From: Methylocella sp. | Lineage (GTDB): Bacteria > Pseudomonadota > Alphaproteobacteria > Rhizobiales > Beijerinckiaceae | NCBI GenBank assembly: GCA_037200525.1 | Contig: JBBCGG010000001.1 | Location: forward strand, 3,018,501 to 3,082,500 | Reading direction: 5' to 3' | Length of the DNA: 64,000 nucleotides | Shown: positions 17,602 through 39,588 of the stretch, in pieces | Layout: each line of letters opens with the position of its first letter | Position numbering within the stretch: the first letter of the stretch is position 1 | The notes under the pieces: generated by a model | Told to the model about the DNA's origin: nothing | Database searches by the model: none | Seen by the model: the letters and a program-made list of their open reading frames with translations, nothing else | Made by a program: the position numbers and the translations under genes

Positions 17602-18945
17602 TCATGAACAATCATTCGGCGCGCCGGCGCTTGTCGCCTCCGCTCCATTCGGCACATTGTCGGCGCCAGGCGTGTCGCCTTCTTCGGTGTTGGGATGCCT
17701 GGCGCCGTCCGCCGCTGTGCCGGTGGCGTCGCTGCCTAGCGCCGCCATGTTGAGCGGCCGATAGACCTCGTCGTCGCCTTCGACGGGCGGTAGGTTTTCG
17801 CTGGCGCGCACTTCGTTCGGCGACAGGAAAGCCGTCAGCATACCGACGCGCGCGGAATTTTAGCGGGTCGTGATATCGGCCCGCAGCAACACCGTCTCGT
17901 CCATGTCGATCTCGAGGCCTTCGTCCGAGAGGCCGAAGACCTGATCAAACTTTTGCTCCCAGCGATGCAGATCAGGCATGACAGTATTGTTGACGTAGTC
18001 CTGATCCATTTGGACGATGTTGACGCCGCGCAGCTGGTCCGTCCCGAGCTTATGTGGCGGGATGCGATAAAAGCGGGCGATGTCCTGCACCTGGTAGGCG
18101 CGCTGCGCCATGAACTCCATGTCGACCGAAGTGAGCTGCAACTGGTTTGCCTTGATGCCTTGTTCGAGCGCCGGCACGCCGCCGACGTTTTGAAAGCCCG
18201 CGTAGGCGTCGCGGAACTGCTGGTTGAGACGCGTCCCGGCGTCCTCGGACAGTTTATGCGGAGCTTCGAGCACCATGCTGGGCCGGGCGCCATTGGCCAT
18301 TTGTCGCGCCGTCTGTTGTTCGAGGCCCTTGGCGACGCCGATGGAATCGCGCGCGATGCCGATCGTCGAAAGCGCCATGAGCGCGTTCAAGCTCAGGCCG
18401 CGCAGATGAAAGATATCCTCCGAGGCGATCGAGGACGGAAACTCGCGCAGCATGGCGATCTGCCAGAGCCCGAGCCGATTGACGTTGTAAAAAATCTGGC
18501 GGTCGAAGCCCTCAAGGACGAGAACGGCGTCCGGATTGATCGGAATGAGCTCAGAGACGACGCCGCGCGCATCGCGCTTGATGGCCGCATGAGCATTACC
18601 GCGCAGAAGATAGGCGGCGTTCATTTGCTCCCTGAATTCGAACCAAGTCCGAACCCGATTCGGTCGGCGAAAAACTTTGCATAGCGGATGCGTCGTATTT
18701 TGCACCCGTGAGCCATCCGGCCGACGCCTGAACAGGCGCGGCGTGCAGCGGGCGGTATCTTGCGAACGGATGGTGACGCAAGCGTAGACGGTCGACACCG
18801 CCATCGCCGCGCCCTGGCTGATGTTCAGCCCCGTCGTCGAGGGCGTCGAGCCCAGCGTCGGCAGATATCCCATCGCCGGGAGCGCGGCGCCAACGCCTTT
18901 CTCTTTTGGCGCGAAGGCCTGGCGGAGGCGGGAGACGAGGCTCAT
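17602..18945 (-). pseudogene. HK97-family phage portal protein with an in-frame stop
   Basis: The 5' part (MSLVSRLRQAFAPKEKGVGA onward) has the portal domain: AVSTVYACVTIRSQDTA, LLRGNAHAAIKRD, IFHLRGLSLNALMALSTIGI, VPALEQGIKANQLQLTSVDM and YRIPPHKLGTDQLRGVNI. It would form the dodecameric ring through which DNA enters a phage or GTA capsid. After ADITTR a TAA (17862-17860) stops translation, yet the same frame continues with the conserved tail (FLSPNEVRASENLPPVEGDD). The family normally has a tyrosine-like residue here, so a single TAC-to-TAA change is the simplest explanation. Start: ATG at 18945. Confidence 0.85.
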
Positions 18946-27550: not shown

Positions 27551-28383
27551 GGCTCAGGACTCATTGATTGAGATAGAAGAGGACGGCGGCTGCGATGCAG
27601 ATGGCGGAGAAGAAGGTGTGGGCGCATCGATCATAGCGGGTTGCGATGCGCCGCCAGTCCTTGAGCTTGGCGAACATGTTCTCGATTTTGTGACGCTGGC
27701 GGTAGAGCGTCTTGTCATAGGCAATGGGAAGCTTGCGGCTTCTGGTTGGCGGGATGCAGGGCTCGACGCCCCTGGCCTTCAGCGCGGCGCGGAACCAGTT
27801 GCTGTCGTAGCCCCTGTCGGCGATCAACATTGAAGCGGGCGGTAAAGCCTTGAGCATCAGCCGCGCGCCCTTGTGGTCGCTCATCTGGCCCTCCGAGAGC
27901 AACATGACGAGGGGCTTGCCGGCGCCGTCGCAAACGACGTGGAGCTTCGAGTTCAGTCCGCCTTTCGTGCGCCCGATACGGCGGGGAAGAGCCCCTTTTT
28001 GAGCAGGCTCGCCGCTGTGCGATGCGCCTTCAGATGCGTGGCGTCGATCATGATGCGCTCGGGCTTTGGACCTTCGCCAGCGAGCGCGGCGAATATGCGG
28101 TCGAAGACGCCGAGCCGGCTCCAGCGGATGAAGCGATTGTAAAGCGTCTTGTGCGGCCCGTAATCCTTGGGCGCATCTTTCCATTGCAGGCCGTTGCGGA
28201 TCACATAGACGATTCCGCTGACCACCCGACGGTCGTCAACCCGCGGAACGCCATGCGACAGAGGAAAATGCGGCGCAAGCCGCGCCATCTGCCGCTCGCC
28301 CAACAAAAACAAATCACTCATCCCAGCCTCCCCATGCGGAGACCAGGAATCACATCTCAGGCAAATTTAATAGGTCCTGAGCC
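27551..28383 (-). mobile_element. IS5 family element, distinct type (833 bp)
   Basis: The ends are inverted repeats starting GGCTCAGGAC on both sides. It is flanked by TA (27549-27550 and 28384-28385; target CTAG). The sequence differs from the four 838-bp elements, so it is a second IS5-family type in the window. Confidence 0.92.
27561..28321 (-). CDS. IS5 family transposase, two frames joined by frameshift
   Basis: The first frame (from 28321) has DRRVVSGIVYVIRNGLQWKD and PHKTLYNRFIRWSRLGVF. It is joined to the second frame at an A5G4 run near 28000, continuing with GRTKGGLNSKLHVVCDGAGK, ADRGYDSNWFR and the C-terminal RHKIENMFAKLKDWRRIATR. DDE_Tnp_1-type catalytic residues are present. The arrangement mirrors the 838-bp elements. 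Both frames are clean. Confidence 0.87.
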
Positions 28384-28493
28384 TAGTGTTCATGACGCGC
28401 CGCGGGCTCAACCCAGCTGTCCGCGCCTTCATCGATTTCCTGGCAGAAAACTACGGACAACAGGTCTGCCTGAGCGGGAACGCGGCCGCGTGA

Positions 28494-28821
28494 AGGTGGA
28501 GCGCTAGACCGACCGGTGCCCCACCAGGCAATTGTTCCTCTTGGGGAACGCACTGTTGTCCAAATGATGCGTAGTGAAAATCTTGCCGCGAGCCTAACCT
28601 ATGCAGGCATACTTCTTCGTCTGTAGGAATATGTCATGTGTAATTCTTCTCATTCGGCGGTAATCTCCTGAAAACGACGAGTAATGACCGAAGCGTGGAG
28701 TGGCACGCTGAAGATTTCGTGTTTCGAATCCCCGCATGCGGGCGCGAACTGTTCCTGAGCAGGGCTCCTTCAAATGGCGACCTGCGAGTGACTCGTGGCT
28801 GAGGGAATAGAAACTCTCCTA
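28494..28821. other. Stretch without a recognisable gene
   Basis: About 330 bp between the split lysR and IS5 copy 3. No frame looks like a gene, and no repeat or terminator stands out. Confidence 0.45.
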
Positions 28822-29659
28822 GGGCCCAGACCCATAAAATGGTTGGCGTGACAGGCGGATTGTGATTCACAGCTTCCGAAAGGAAGCGACTATGAATCGG
28901 GATCAATTCTGGCTGACGGACGCGCAGTTCGCGAAGATCGCGCCGCATCTTCCCACGGACACGCGCGGCAAGGCGCGCGTCGATGATCGCCGGGTGATCA
29001 GCGGGATCATTCATGTGCTGAAATCTGGCGGACGCTGGATTGACGCGCCGCTGGAGTACGGGCCAAAGAAGACTCTCTACAATCGCTACGTTCGCTGGGC
29101 TGCTAAGGGCGTTTGGATCGATCTGTTCCACGCGCTTGCGCAAGCAGGCGGGCCGCCGGCGCGGGTCCTCATCGACTCCTCGGCGGTCAAGGCGCATTGC
29201 TCGGCCAGTGGCGGCAAAGGGGGGAGAAGAATCAGGCCATCGGCCGTTCGCGCGGCGGGCGCACAACCAAAATCCACGCATTGACCGATGCGGACTGCCG
29301 CCCGCTGTCTTTCATGCTCACCGGCGGCCAAATCGCCGATTGCTCGGCGGGCGCGGAGCTTATCGCGCGACTTCCTCCTTGCGAAATCCTCCATGGCGAC
29401 AAGGGCTACGACGCAAATGCGATCCGTCGGCAGGTCGAGGAGCGCGGAGCTATGCCGAATATCCCGCCCAAGGCCAATCGCAGGTGGAAGAACTGCTTCT
29501 CGCCCTTCCTCTATCGAAACCGCAACGCCATCGAACGCATGTTCTGCCGCCTGAAAGACTTCAGGCGCGTGGCTACCCGCTACGACCGAAACGCCATAAA
29601 CTTCCTCGCGACAGTCTGCATCGCCGCTACCGTTTGCTACTGGTTGTGAGTCTGGACCC
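28822..29659 (+). mobile_element. IS5 family element (IS427-like group), copy 3 (838 bp)
   Basis: Same ends and length as copy 1 and in the same orientation. Flanked by TA (28820-28821 and 29660-29661; target CTAA). Confidence 0.92.
28892..29649 (+). CDS. IS5 family transposase, -1 frameshift
   Basis: Same organisation as in copy 1. Distinguishing residues are KARV, VISG, PPARV, HCSA and VCYWL. Both frames are open and the G6 slippery run is present. Confidence 0.88.
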
Positions 29660-29661
29660 TA

Positions 29662-30034
29662 AAGCGCAGTCTTCACGAAGTCTTCGGCGAACGAGTTGCA
29701 GTGAGGAGACGCGCGGCGATCGCACAGCTTTGGGCTGAAGATTGTGTCCTCTTAATCCTAGGGGCCGGACAAGCGGGCGCGACGAGCTGGACTCCCGCGA
29801 AGAGCCCATCAGGGTGTTGATGTGGCTCTCGTGCGGAACGGCCATATTTCGCTGATGTTCACATTTTTGGATCGGGTACCAACGAAACTGTAGCTCATCA
29901 CACCGAAGGGAGCGGTTTCGATCTAAGTACAAGTAGTGCGTCAAAGAGAAGGCTGCGGTCTGTAGCTACGACGCAGTAGCGTTAGTGCTGCGTCATTTGT
30001 GAGGTCGGCCTCAAACACAAGAAAGAGGACAAAT
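29662..30034. other. Stretch without a recognisable gene, upstream of wrbA
   Basis: No convincing ORF. It should contain the wrbA promoter, but I could not identify clear -35/-10 boxes. AAAGAGGA at 30022-30029 is the wrbA ribosome-binding site. Confidence 0.45.
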
Positions 30035-32192: not shown

Positions 32193-32473
32193 TCAGGATG
32201 CAATGCGCCGGCTGTTCAATTTTCGGCGCGATCGCGCGGCACATTCGGGCACCTCCAGGTTCTCAACCGGGAGATACTTGCCTTGATAGAAATCATGCTC
32301 ATCAACGGGCGGCCGTCGGTTGAGCGGGTGGGGGCCGAGGACCAGGTCGATTGCCTCGAACACTGACGATTTTCCGGTGTTGCTATCTCCAATCAGCACC
32401 GCATGATCGGGTAGCACCAGCTTAGCGAACGGATGCCTCGAAAATTCTCAATCACTACGGAAAATATCTTCAC
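32193..32473 (-). pseudogene. OLD-family ATPase/nuclease, N-terminal fragment with frameshift
   Basis: The start (GTG at 32473) encodes VKIFSVVIENFRGIRSL, the usual first strand-helix of AAA ATPases of the OLD group. After a frameshift near 32433 the frame continues as LPDHAVLIGDSNTGKSSVFE (Walker A) and LNRRPPVDEHDFYQGKYLP. About 450 further residues (Q-loop, Walker B and TOPRIM nuclease) are missing. The GTG overlaps the stop of the upstream HTH gene, so the two formed a coupled pair. OLD ATPases act in phage defence or DNA repair. Confidence 0.75.
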
Positions 32474-32868
32474 GGCAATCCCCGTGGGGCCGACGCACGG
32501 ATATCGTCTATCGCGGTCAAGAGGTCAACAAGCAGCTGGCGCAGTTCGGAAAAGCCCGCCGCCGTTCGAAGCTCTCCCCGGTCAGCGAGGTCGAGAACAC
32601 CTCCAAGCACAACGTCGGAATATCGGAGCAGATAAATCAGGTTTTCGCCGCTCGGACCATTTTTCGCGTCGAACCAATTGCGGACGGCGCGCTCATTCGC
32701 TCGCGTGAGCCTCGCCACCGTTTTTATTGCGGACGTGCCCCCGCCAAATTCCTCCCTTAGAGCCGAGGCGATTATCTCAGCGAATGGGGGGCGACCAGCC
32801 TCTGCTGAGGCCGGAAAAGATCTTCCAGATTTTGACTGAACTTTTCGGTCGTTCTTGGTGAAGGACAT
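32470..32868 (-). CDS. Putative HTH DNA-binding protein divergent from the recombinase
   Basis: This 132-residue protein has a central region TSAIKTVARLTRANERAVRNWF that reads as a helix-turn-helix, followed by a leucine-rich helical tail (LRQLLVDLLTAIDDIRASAP). The 73-bp gap to the recombinase start at 32942 would be a shared, divergent promoter, so this may be the regulator of the recombinase operon. Its stop overlaps the GTG of the OLD-like gene. The family has no name that I recognise. Confidence 0.68.
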   Translation of the reverse strand: MSFTKNDRKVQSKSGRSFPASAEAGRPPFAEIIASALREEFGGGTSAIKTVARLTRANERAVRNWFDAKNGPSGENLIYLLRYSDVVLGGVLDLADRGELRTAAGFSELRQLLVDLLTAIDDIRASAPRGLP

Positions 32869-32941
32869 TCCTGTTCACTCCCCGTAGCCTCGTCGAGCGA
32901 CGAAATCGTTCTCCAGGGGTCCGCTCGAGTAATCGTGATAT

Positions 32942-34513
32942 GTGATGATGAGTTCGGTAGCTCCGAGAAACGACGACTATCCCCACCGTAGAGTTCGGGC
33001 TGCGCAATACGTGCGTATGTCGACCGATCATCAAAAATACTCGACAGAAAACCAGGCCGATATTATTGCGCAGTATGCTGATCGTCGTGGTTTCGAGATC
33101 GTCAGGACTTATCAGGATTCGGGCAAAAGCGGTCTGCGTCTGGATGGCAGACAAGCGCTCCAACGCTTGATTGCAGACGTTCGCAGCGGGTGTGCGGAAT
33201 TTGCCGCCATCCTTGTATATGACGTCAGCCGCTGGGGTCGGTTTCAGGACGCTGATGAAAGCGCCTATTACGAGTTTATTTGTCGTGAGGCAGGCATTGC
33301 AGTTCGATATTGCGCTGAGCAATTCGAGAATGATGGAAGCCTGAGCGCCACTATCATCAAAAGTATGAAGCGAGCCATGGCGGGGGAGTATAGCCGCGAG
33401 CTGTCCGCTAAAGTGTTCACAGGCCAGTGTCGCCTTATCCGCATGGGTTTTCGCCAAGGTGGCCCGGCTGGCTTCGGCCTGCGACGCCAATTGCTTGATG
33501 AGCATCGGACACCGAAAGTCCTGTTGGGTCGGGGAGAGTATAAAAGTTTGCAAACAGATCGCGTCGTCCTAACTCCGGGGCCGCCTGACGAGGTCGAGGT
33601 GGTTCGCCGCCTCTATCGAATGTTCGTCGTGCAGCGGCGCACTGAGAGCGAGATCGCCGCCATCTTAAACGCCGAGAAAGTTCCAGGCGATCTTTATCGG
33701 CCTTGGACGCGCGGAGCAGTCCATCAAATTTTGACTAATGAGAAGTATGTCGGCAATAACGTTTACAATCGCGTTTCTTTCAAGCTCAAAGCAAAACGCG
33801 TTGCGAACCCTCCAGGTATGTGGGTGCGCAGCAACGGAGCCTTCGAACCGATCGTGGAGGCCGACTTCTTCGAAGCCGCGCAAAGGATCGTCCAAGATCG
33901 AAGCCGACGGTTCAGCGACCAGGACCTGCTCGATCGTCTTTCGACGCTGCTTGCCACAAAAGGATGGCTCTCGGGGCTTGTAATCGACGAAGCCGAGGAC
34001 ATGCCGTCCAGTTCCACCTTCCGTCATCGGTTCGGAAGCTTGGTCCGCGCCTATCAGCTCGTTGGCTATTCGCCGTCTCGTGATTACCGTTACATCGAAA
34101 CCAACCGAACGTTGCGGGCACTCCACCCGGACGTCGTCGCGCAAGTTGTCGTCGATATTGAAAGCGCAGGAGGCACGGTGCGCCGCAACCCTCTGAATGA
34201 TCTCCTCACGATCAATGATGAGTTCAGGGCTTCGGTAGTCATTGTGCGCTGCCAAATGACAACAGCGGGCGGCCTGCGATGGAAGGTTCGACTGGATAGC
34301 GGCCTCAGGCCCGACATCACAATCGCGGTCCGCATGAAACCGGATAACGCGGGAGTTTACGACTATTACCTGCTACCGTGGCTAGACGTCGGATCAGTCT
34401 CGAATCTACGCCTCGCGCCAGAAAACGGCATTCTTCTTGACGCCTACAGATTCGACACCCTCGACGCTTTCTTTGACCTTGGGCGTCGAACGCCATTGCG
34501 AGCCGCCCTATGA
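32942..34513 (+). CDS. Large serine recombinase
   Basis: This 523-residue protein has an N-terminal resolvase domain with the catalytic serine S27 in YVRMSTDHQ and conserved arginines in the region of SRWGRFQDADE. A Recombinase domain follows (EVVRRLYRMFVVQRRTESEI through TNEKYVGNNVYN). Large serine recombinases integrate and excise DNA between short att sites. The C-terminal part (from about residue 350) has no obvious zinc ribbon and looks specific to this subfamily. The start may be GTG 32942 or ATG 32945/32948. Its TGA overlaps the ATG of the following ParB-like gene by 4 bp, so the three-gene unit is translationally linked. Confidence 0.9.
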   Translation: MMMSSVAPRNDDYPHRRVRAAQYVRMSTDHQKYSTENQADIIAQYADRRGFEIVRTYQDSGKSGLRLDGRQALQRLIADVRSGCAEFAAILVYDVSRWGRFQDADESAYYEFICREAGIAVRYCAEQFENDGSLSATIIKSMKRAMAGEYSRELSAKVFTGQCRLIRMGFRQGGPAGFGLRRQLLDEHRTPKVLLGRGEYKSLQTDRVVLTPGPPDEVEVVRRLYRMFVVQRRTESEIAAILNAEKVPGDLYRPWTRGAVHQILTNEKYVGNNVYNRVSFKLKAKRVANPPGMWVRSNGAFEPIVEADFFEAAQRIVQDRSRRFSDQDLLDRLSTLLATKGWLSGLVIDEAEDMPSSSTFRHRFGSLVRAYQLVGYSPSRDYRYIETNRTLRALHPDVVAQVVVDIESAGGTVRRNPLNDLLTINDEFRASVVIVRCQMTTAGGLRWKVRLDSGLRPDITIAVRMKPDNAGVYDYYLLPWLDVGSVSNLRLAPENGILLDAYRFDTLDAFFDLGRRTPLRAAL

Positions 34514-35391
34514 CCGAAGGTCACGAAATCCGCATGGTGCCGATCGACGCCATTAAGGTGCTGAACCCTCGTGTTCGCAATAAGCGAATCTTTCAGGAGC
34601 TGATCGACAGCATCGCCCACTTGGGTTTGAAAAAGCCGATCACAGTAAGTCAACGTCCTGGCAATGCACGATATGATTTGGTTTGTGGCCAAGGGCGGCT
34701 CGAAGCCTTCATGGCCTTGGGGCAGCTAGAAATCCCGGCGATAGTGCTCGACGCAACTGAAGAAGATTGCTTCGTGATGAGCTTGGTCGAGAACCTTGCC
34801 CGCCGGCACCACACCTCGATCGAGCTAGTGCGCGCAATCGGCGCTCTGAGGGAGAGGGGATATTCACATTCGGAAATTGCCATCAAATTGGATTTCAGTG
34901 CCGAATATGTCAACTCCATTTGTTACCTGCTCCAACATGGCGAGGAGAAGCTCATCAATGCCGTCGATCGCGGCGTTATACCGCACTCAATTGCCGTAGA
35001 GATCGCTCGCGCCAAAGAAGGTGATGTTCAGCGAGCACTAGCGCAGGCTTATGAGGAGAAGGCCATCCCGGGCAACCAAGTGCTGGCGATCCGGAAAATC
35101 ATCGAGCAGCGAAACACCAGTGGCAAGGCGGTACGTCTGCGGAATCGGCGGGAACGCCGCACCTTAAAGCGAGTAACCTCCGAAAACCTTATACGTGCTT
35201 ATCAGAAGGAAACCGAAAGGCAGAGGCTTCTCGTCAAACGGGCGACGCTTGCTCGCAGTCGACTGCTATTTGTGTCGAATGCGCTGAAACGCCTTCTTAC
35301 CGATGATCATTTTTTGACGCTTCTGCGCGCCGAAGGCCTACACTCTCTACCGAGCGCGTTAGCCGAGCGCATCGAAACCGGGAGGCCATAA
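34510..35391 (+). CDS. ParB/Spo0J-like protein
   Basis: A 293-residue protein with a ParB N-terminal CTP-binding domain: MVPIDAIKVLNPRVRNKR, LGLKKPITVSQRPG, GQGRLEAFMALG (the GERRxRA-like box, with QG in place of ER) and VENLARR. A KorB/ParB-type helix-turn-helix follows (YSHSEIAIKLDFSAEYVNSI). The C-terminus is basic and helical. No ParA is nearby, which argues against a normal partition system. It overlaps the recombinase gene by 4 bp and is followed after 3 bp by a second ParB-like gene, so its role is probably tied to recombination or target recognition. Confidence 0.86.
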   Translation: MTEGHEIRMVPIDAIKVLNPRVRNKRIFQELIDSIAHLGLKKPITVSQRPGNARYDLVCGQGRLEAFMALGQLEIPAIVLDATEEDCFVMSLVENLARRHHTSIELVRAIGALRERGYSHSEIAIKLDFSAEYVNSICYLLQHGEEKLINAVDRGVIPHSIAVEIARAKEGDVQRALAQAYEEKAIPGNQVLAIRKIIEQRNTSGKAVRLRNRRERRTLKRVTSENLIRAYQKETERQRLLVKRATLARSRLLFVSNALKRLLTDDHFLTLLRAEGLHSLPSALAERIETGRP

Positions 35392-35394
35392 GCG

Positions 35395-36345
35395 ATGCCG
35401 GGAAGGGTAAAAATCGCGTTTGAACGTGCAGTGCTTATGGTAGCATTGAGCGAAATCTTCCCGTCGAAGCTACTAGCGCCAGCTCTCAAAGAAACCGCTA
35501 AGTATAAGCGCATTGTCGCGTCGGTGGCTCAGTTAGGTTTGATCGAACCGCTTTCAGTTGCTCGTCAGAAGGATGGTTCACATCTCCTTCTCGACGGGCA
35601 TGTCAGATTCGATGCGCTACAGCAGCAGGGAGCCCTCCACGCTAGCTGCATCGTCGCCAACGATGACGAGGCGTTCACTTATAACAAGCGCATCAATCGT
35701 CTGGCTCCAATCCAAGAGCACCATATGATAGTTCGAGCTCTTGAGCGGGGTGTTCCCGAAGAGAAGCTCGCTCGAGCGCTCGATGTAGACGTGAAGGTAA
35801 TCCGGCAGCGACGGCACATGCTCACCGGCATTAGCGGTGAGGTCGAAGAGTTGCTGAAGGATAAGCCGGTCGGTCACCGCTCTTTCCAGGTCCTTCGGAA
35901 GATGAAGCCGATTCGGCAGCTCGAGGTGGCCGAGCTGATGACGTCCGCAAATAACTTCAGTTCCAGCTATACTAAAGCCTTATTGGCCACGACCAAGCCA
36001 GCAGATCTCCATAAGCCGGACGAACTCACAAGAGCTACCGGTCTTTCCACTGAACAGATGATGCGTCTCGAGCGAGAGATGTCCTCGATAAGCGAAGATT
36101 ATAAAGAATTGGAGGTATCCTATGGCGACGACATGTTAGTTCTAGTTGTTGCCGCCGGCTTTTTGGAGCGGTTGCTTTCCAAGCCCGCCATCGAACGCTT
36201 CCTGGCTAACCGCCACCCCGAATTTCTGGAAAACTTCCGATCTATCGTTCTGACCGCTTCGCTTGACCAAGCTCCTCCTCCTGCCGCATTGAAAGCCCGG
36301 TCCAAATGCTTTGTGGGCGGGAGCAAGGGCGTACCAGCGAAGTGA
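35395..36345 (+). CDS. Plasmid partition RepB C-terminal-domain protein
   Basis: A 316-residue protein with a diverged ParB N-terminal domain (LSEIFPSKLLAPALKET, LGLIEPLSVARQ, LDGHVRFDALQQQG, where the usual arginine-rich box is reduced). It is followed by a helical domain (EEKLARALDVDVKVIRQRRH) and the RepB C-terminal-like region (HRSFQVLRKMKPIRQLEVAE onward). Loss of canonical CTP-binding residues suggests that it is a partner of the upstream ParB-like protein rather than an independent clamp. Start: ATG at 35395, 3 bp after the previous stop. Confidence 0.85.
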   Translation: MPGRVKIAFERAVLMVALSEIFPSKLLAPALKETAKYKRIVASVAQLGLIEPLSVARQKDGSHLLLDGHVRFDALQQQGALHASCIVANDDEAFTYNKRINRLAPIQEHHMIVRALERGVPEEKLARALDVDVKVIRQRRHMLTGISGEVEELLKDKPVGHRSFQVLRKMKPIRQLEVAELMTSANNFSSSYTKALLATTKPADLHKPDELTRATGLSTEQMMRLEREMSSISEDYKELEVSYGDDMLVLVVAAGFLERLLSKPAIERFLANRHPEFLENFRSIVLTASLDQAPPPAALKARSKCFVGGSKGVPAK

Positions 36346-36579
36346 TAGACCTTCGATTTCGTGATGACCTACATCACTGTCGCGTCCCGGCATTGACCTT
36401 CGGGCGCCATGTCGGTCGAAAACTTATCCGGAGCCGAGCCCGAGGACATATGGCAATCGCTGCCATCGCCTGATGGTTGGGCAGCGTTTGTGGGCTCAGT
36501 TCGGGGGTTTCAGTGCGCTTGCGCGCTGTCCTATCTATACCGGCTCAAAAACCAAAGATGGCGGCCTTCGTTTTTAAAC

Positions 36580-36719
36580 GTAAGCGCCAAGCTGGACCCA
36601 TATGGCGGAGCGTCTGACGAGCAGGTATTTATGCGGGAGCTGCAATAAAGTAAGCGCCAAGCTGGACCCATATGGCGGAGCGTCTGACGAGCAGGTATTT
36701 ATGCGGGAGCTGCAATAAA
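36580..36719 (+). repeat. Perfect 70-bp tandem duplication of the IS66 left end
   Basis: 36580-36649 and 36650-36719 are identical, each beginning GTAAGCGCCAAGCTGGACCC and ending CTGCAATAAA. The outer copy carries the 8-bp target duplication, so the outer end was used in the last transposition. The inner copy is a second complete left terminus 70 bp inside. Confidence 0.95.
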
Positions 36720-39542: not shown

Positions 39543-39588
39543 TGGTTGCGGGGACAGGATTTGAACCTGTGACCTTCAGGTTATGAGC
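39543..39588 (-). other. 3' half of tRNA-fMet(CAT), probable attachment-site scar
   Basis: The minus strand reads GCTCATAACCTGAAGGTCAC, then AGGTTCAAATCCTGTCCCCG and CAACCA. This is the anticodon loop through CCA of an initiator-type tRNA-Met. The sequence upstream of the anticodon loop does not form the 5' anticodon stem, D arm or acceptor strand, so it is a 46-nt fragment and not a working tRNA. Integrases often leave such copies at island ends. Confidence 0.78.

Follow-up and report, generated by a model that had tools for sequence, protein, structure and literature searches.

A serine recombinase coupled to two ParB-like proteins forms a widespread mobile unit, a probable integration module, followed in many copies by a structured RNA

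Short att cores are usual among large serine integrases, and the SCC cassettes of the recombinases CcrA, CcrB and CcrC are islands at a fixed site. ParB proteins are segregation clamps, and the IS110 bridge-RNA and TnpB/IscB omega-RNA elements have a structured RNA at the element end. We know of no ParB pair or RNA in SCC/Ccr systems. Here we describe a real, fixed, widespread and mobile trio that is probably an integration module. It consists of a serine recombinase (REC) and, after it, two ParB-like proteins (B1 and B2); as a new finding, many copies have a structured RNA located after B2. The unit is undescribed in the papers found by full-text literature search, the coverage of which leaves out most subscription journals and bioRxiv preprints. 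In a study of Paracoccus prophages, 11 of 15 serine recombinases fall in one cluster without an identified integration site (PMC6536676), and some of these may belong to the REC family. A family that links two ParB-like proteins to a site-specific recombinase would extend the work of ParB clamps beyond segregation and would supply serine integrases with a new accessory module.

The module was studied in a 64,000-nucleotide stretch of Methylocella sp. DNA, referred to throughout as the window (Table 1). An initial annotation had proposed that the recombinase gene is coupled to a ParB-like gene through an ATGA overlap, with the next gene 3 bp further on. Our coordinates agree: the end of REC shares 4 nt (ATGA) with the start of B1, B2 starts three bases past the B1 stop and all three reading frames are open. 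The coupling recurs in relatives, the 4-nt REC/B1 overlap being present in 43 of 80 loci measured. On the single 5.24-Mb contig that contains the window, a search with REC returned, besides REC itself, two weak matches only (E about 3e-5).

Table 1. Features of the module in the window (window positions) and tRNA genes at block edges in two related loci (locus positions).
Feature	Position	Strand	Basis
REC, serine recombinase (Resolvase and Recombinase domains, own C-terminal part)	32942-34513	+	Pfam, invariant active-site residues
B1, ParB-like, RepB C-terminal domain, GQGR nucleotide box	34510-35391	+	Pfam, Spo0J match, box II counts
B2, diverged ParB-like, RepB domain, DGHxR and NKRxxRLAxIQEH motifs	35395-36345	+	Pfam, conservation
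HTH protein, divergent, probable module repressor	32470-32868	-	Homologue before REC in most loci
OLD/AAA-type ATPase gene remnant, overlaps HTH stop	32193-32473	-	Stop and frame change, cut short
Region holding terminal RNA in most relatives, RNA-free here	36346-36573	.	R1 model search
tRNA-Met	L027 44-120; L029 35-111		ARAGORN

REC carries the Resolvase (PF00239, 3e-22) and Recombinase (PF07508, 3e-20) domains, and among 48 aligned RECs the catalytic serine S27 is invariant, as are R25, D94, R97 and R100. With the large serine recombinases (SPbeta SprA/YokA, TP901-1, TnpX) it shares the catalytic domain, over profile positions 19-150 at most, and the Recombinase domain, aligned to solved structures over 217-323. 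Beyond about position 323 no solved chain was matched at E <= 0.01, and no zinc-ribbon Pfam match appeared up to E=1. REC differs from these recombinases in having a fixed ParB-like partner pair; as a further point of comparison with them, the edges of the module in Agrobacterium share a 26-bp similar stretch. Compared with the SCC recombinases, the best NCBIfam match of REC was CcrB, over the catalytic part only and at 51 bits against an equivalog cut-off of 900, so REC falls below Ccr membership.

A fixed trio, as the initial annotation had claimed, was borne out among the best 80 loci kept from a scan for REC relatives. B1 follows REC in all 80 (five of these partial) and B2 is present in 76, the four loci without B2 lying at contig ends with B1 partial. 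Homologues thus occur together rather than mostly apart, the exceptions being B1 and B2 fragments on Sinorhizobium meliloti pSymA. In the one such record examined (strain M162) the fragments are scattered beside RelBE-type genes with no annotated recombinase; they constitute a clear co-occurrence exception and look like a decayed module. Across plasmids, REC matched 217 records, 60 of them at a single site that spans 80% or more of REC, and B2 matched 95 records at 1e-20. Sinorhizobium accounted for 46 of these 95 B2 records versus five REC records, and strains K101, C101 and M103 carry both genes. Among 50,697 phage records, a single full-length REC was found, on a short uncultured contig that also has B2. 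Members of the family were seen in Alpha-, Beta- and Gammaproteobacteria, and a few more in genome assemblies from other phyla. In the window's own family, REC was present in 16 of 149 genomes at 1e-60, its own genome counted, whereas none of the five listed genomes of its genus has it; the 15 loci of this family that were fully read contained B1 in 15, B2 in 14, the HTH gene in 14 and the terminal RNA in 6. A 13.5-kb record labelled as a Lactiplantibacillus plantarum plasmid (NZ_CP110863.1) holds a proteobacterial-type REC and B2 and is perhaps a mislabelled or contaminating contig.

B1 matches ParB_N (PF02195, 4e-11) and RepB (PF07506, 1.6e-28) as well as Spo0J (1vz0, 7e-17) and Noc proteins, and B2 matches RepB (PF07506, 3e-46) with a sub-threshold ParB_N match. 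B1 keeps the three boxes of ParB/Spo0J/Noc partition proteins (NPRxR, GQGR and ENxARR), with box II reading GQGR in 68 of 75 loci and GEGR in 7. The claim that B2 had lost its arginine-rich CTP box was half right: B2 is without the ENxxR box, but it retains the box-II arginine (DGHxR) in 75/75 loci, and the histidine of that motif in 72/75. In Bacillus subtilis ParB, the corresponding glutamate-to-glutamine change hinders CTP hydrolysis. By analogy, the GQGR box suggests slow nucleotide turnover in B1, which would therefore be a clamp that stays put.

These family ties raise the alternative that B1 and B2 serve the island as a partition or stability system, with REC just the integrase and co-location reflecting maintenance instead of a joint reaction. 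We regard this as unlikely: the Spo0J and Noc matches, the RepB domains of both proteins and the toxin-antitoxin-type genes that adjoin some units would suit such a system, whereas the compact unit is without a ParA gene, B1 has its 4-nt overlap with REC in those 43 of 80 loci, and the compact Agrobacterium block holds nothing else. That block has no ParA gene and no adjacent repA or repC; a ParA gene about 8 kb from the module on a Roseomonas plasmid is presumably the plasmid's own. Against the RepB equivalog (TIGR03454), B1 scored 41.5 bits with a cut-off of 201.5, and B2 was unlisted. The pair shares the ParB_N and RepB domains with partition proteins, B1 also boxes I-III. It departs from them in that the two copies have diverged and are coupled to a recombinase gene, with no ParA in the unit, GQGR in most B1 proteins and DGHxR in B2.

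Comparison of copies shows that the trio moves. The match between the Agrobacterium plasmids pAt C58 and pAt1D1460 is confined to 3904 bp, 96.9% identical, between different neighbours, and this block comprises HTH-REC-B1-B2 plus 39 and 56 bp outside. On an Agrobacterium larrymoorei plasmid, the left-side DNA matches and ends one base short of the C58 block, and on two further Agrobacterium plasmids the left match extends 22-24 bp, into the shared edge. Both edges of the block hold a tRNA T-arm-like stretch (CCTTGA..GGA.T.GAACC). Away from the module in A. larrymoorei, an AbiEi-AbiEii block (L086 11724-14477, L110 6001-8757) ends where the C58 module starts, as if block and module used the same site.

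In Sphingobium, plasmids pSF1 (occupied) and pSPHCH01 (empty) flank an insert of about 5.6 kb with DNA that is 99.3% identical on its left side and 78.4% on its right, and the edges of the insert carry an approximately 76-bp repeat (81% identical). Other Sphingobium plasmids resemble the right flank of pSF1 more closely (97-98%) and the edge repeat is partly plasmid backbone, so the data are also compatible with homologous exchange at the edge. In the Rhodobacterales loci L027 and L029, the shared block starts on its left side within a tRNA-Met (CAT) gene, and L034 and L036 have the 3' part of the same tRNA-Met sequence at the edge; ARAGORN found a whole tRNA in two of eight such loci and none in the other six. 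In L027 and related loci, prophage genes may also belong to the element. In a Ruegeria group, L178 and L171 have a common left edge and both end on the right at the RNA, with surroundings that differ, and the right flank is still island DNA. Three groups (Agrobacterium, Rhodobacterales and a Ruegeria group) have left ends that are tRNA-Met or resemble a tRNA T-arm, and by eye no tRNA-like left end was visible in Sphingobium or in the pairs L007/L008, L016/L017 and L074/L075. Pseudomonas and Roseomonas plasmids offered no clear empty site among the matches listed. Comparing occupied with empty sites, as the initial annotation had advised, yielded junctions in other species and none for the window copy at 32.2 or 36.4 kb, and a repeat search of 24.0-32.5 against 36.3-40 kb of the window gave a 15-bp match only (E 0.09). 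No circular form was observed. These results support a fixed, coupled trio that behaves as a recombination unit: where copies were compared, it moves in one piece and its ends are sharp.

Two candidate end markers were rejected. The T-arm motif had a match with one mismatch in 1 of 24 RNA-less and 4 of 51 RNA-bearing loci, and is so infrequent that it is not general as a right end. Flanking direct repeats, scanned in 73 loci, exceeded the best control (33.7 bits) in six: those at L049 (37 bp), L021 (52 bp) and L056 (98 bp) are possibly genuine, those at L062 and L043 look like duplicated genes, and the match at L013 is a scanned interval overlapping itself. Separately, a search with the Ruegeria left flank returned short repeats (leftC) of the module left edge, dispersed across many genomes of the genus (L041 9138-9319). 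One left-edge repeat, which holds a T-arm-like GAACCAGTCTC motif, is also found at the border of a different unit, one that has a transposase-like gene.

The islands around the module are rich in genes matching defence models, and the trio could itself be an anti-phage defence system. PADLOC was convincing for no member, with B1 matching a methyltransferase model weakly (0.0068). In a neighbour scan covering 112 of 141 adjacent genes and 91 distal controls, 162 families were matched in the adjacent genes versus 150 in the controls. With distal controls about equally rich, the many defence matches among neighbours are island background; a defence role of the trio was dropped, and we hold it to be extremely improbable.

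After B2, a G+C-rich conserved block begins 3-76 nt past the stop codon in 51 of 75 loci. This terminal RNA, roughly 190-220 nt long, closes the module in some two thirds of the related loci; it is missing in 24, the window included, and is therefore not needed by all copies. A consensus fold of 38 RNA loci has 35 pairs, 18 of which are changed on both sides. Pairing cells reach 97.1% against 89.1% expected from shuffles, double-change cells number 114 against 36.1 expected (0/500 shuffles), and slid versions of the fold give at most 13 double-change cells; this covariation supports the predicted pairing. Rfam 15 at gathering score had nothing at the RNA in five RNA-bearing loci (seven loci scanned), and weak Rfam matches checked in two RNA-bearing loci included none that was credible. 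A covariance model, R1, found 54 copies in 89 sources; 38 of the 51 RNA loci went into its construction and are matched for that reason. At one locus (L083) the RNA was recognized by R1 and not by the motif scan, and this locus was counted as RNA-bearing in the tree only. The RNA is thus strongly covarying, without an Rfam match in the copies scanned and tied to the edge of a mobile module, and it raises the question of whether a serine recombinase uses RNA.

Alternatively, the RNA could be a host or cargo gene that is a preferred neighbour or target of the element rather than part of it. A class-wide sample bears on this reading: the RNA occurred in only 14 of 385 genomes, in 17 copies, and 15 of the 17 adjoin B2, a distribution that argues against an independent gene, whereas the other two are orphans, one each in genomes G240 and G351, which have no B2 match at 1e-10. 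L041 likewise contains a second, orphan copy (18376-18509) after a PIN-domain gene, and L173, from the same genus, has the RNA with no trio found nearby, but the L173 orphan still has a B2 stop and the B2-RNA spacer ahead of it. We therefore hold a neighbouring gene to be very unlikely and treat the RNA as part of the element.

A further inverted repeat follows the RNA and ends 159-269 nt past the RNA start. Stems of at least 7 bp were found in 44 of 51 loci versus 122 of 220 control windows, and stems of at least 9 bp in 35 of 51 versus 13 of 220. Among 24 locus pairs, six lose similarity within 3 bp of the 3' end of the last hairpin (L007/L008, L034/L036, L034/L043, L027/L034, L063/L064 and L178/L171), not all of them independent because L034 is in three. 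Eight lose similarity earlier, at 111-142 nt, where hairpins vary; six are still similar past the hairpin, three are uninformative, and one has no RNA and loses similarity at B2. At least three T residues follow 7 of 44 hairpins, a scarcity of T runs by which most last hairpins are not standard terminators. Like the IS110 bridge-RNA and TnpB/IscB omega-RNA elements, the module has a structured RNA at its end; unlike them, it has a serine recombinase and no DEDD or RuvC nuclease, and 24 of 75 copies are missing the RNA. By eye, the betaproteobacterial loci L067 and L082 share another type of conserved non-coding sequence behind B2, which perhaps represents a second class of RNA.

We consider it likely that a family of integrative elements has the trio as its integration module and that the window holds an eroded copy, and we infer the following roles for REC, B1, B2 and the RNA. 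The elements would be islands, some prophage-linked and some plasmid-borne. REC would cut and join DNA at the edge sites, beside which B1 and B2 would bind as an obligate ParB-type pair, as family knowledge suggests. The initial annotation had suggested that a ParB clamp pair could load the integrase or select its target. In our reading the pair may load REC or lock it in the synapse, and may set direction in place of a zinc-ribbon domain, to which REC had no match. The HTH protein would repress the operon. The RNA, with its last hairpin at the right edge, may act either as a regulatory element of the 3' end or as the scaffold of the recombination complex. A stronger version, which we judge decidedly unlikely, is an RNA-assisted recombinase in which REC, B1 and B2 bind the RNA and are helped by it to recognize the element end or target. 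If so, a ParB-type clamp pair and an RNA would replace the missing att-reading domain, and RNA-less copies such as that in the window would be immobile or reliant on the RNA of another copy.

Upstream of REC, a homologue of the HTH gene lies on the opposite strand in 64 of 80 loci; the protein had no Pfam match above cut-off and is the probable repressor of the module. The HTH gene had been described as coupled to an OLD-type ATPase gene, and the first half of that description stands: the HTH gene is real, but the ATPase gene is broken by a stop and a frame change. Its start, VKIFSVVIENFRGIRSL, runs into a stop after 26 codons, and the Walker A motif GDSNTGKS lies in a different frame, where the open stretch from a GTG spans 74 residues. 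The window accordingly has no intact HTH-OLD operon. No ORF similar to the remnant was found at E <= 0.01 in the 80 loci, and the OLD label itself comes from the initial annotation and not from a family search.

On a tree of 74 RECs, the presence of the RNA requires 7 changes versus 19.9 when labels are shuffled. The window REC falls inside a 15-row clade (99/98) in which 13 members are RNA-bearing, the window being one of the two without. R1 had no match in the window, and none in its own genome among the first 150 of 4918 candidates scored. With no RNA, a broken OLD gene and, from about 36.7 kb, genes that we take to be IS66-like, the copy in the window looks old and eroded, and it is probably decaying. 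To the right of the module and left of the IS66-like genes, a 70-bp repeat is present in two tandem copies (36580-36719); to the left of the module, at 27561-29738, are two IS-like transposase gene sets that by eye are apparently frame-split. Exact T-arm consensus motifs occur in the window at 39557 and 39944 (-), both outside any tRNA called by ARAGORN, and are possible tRNA-like attachment remnants of the island.
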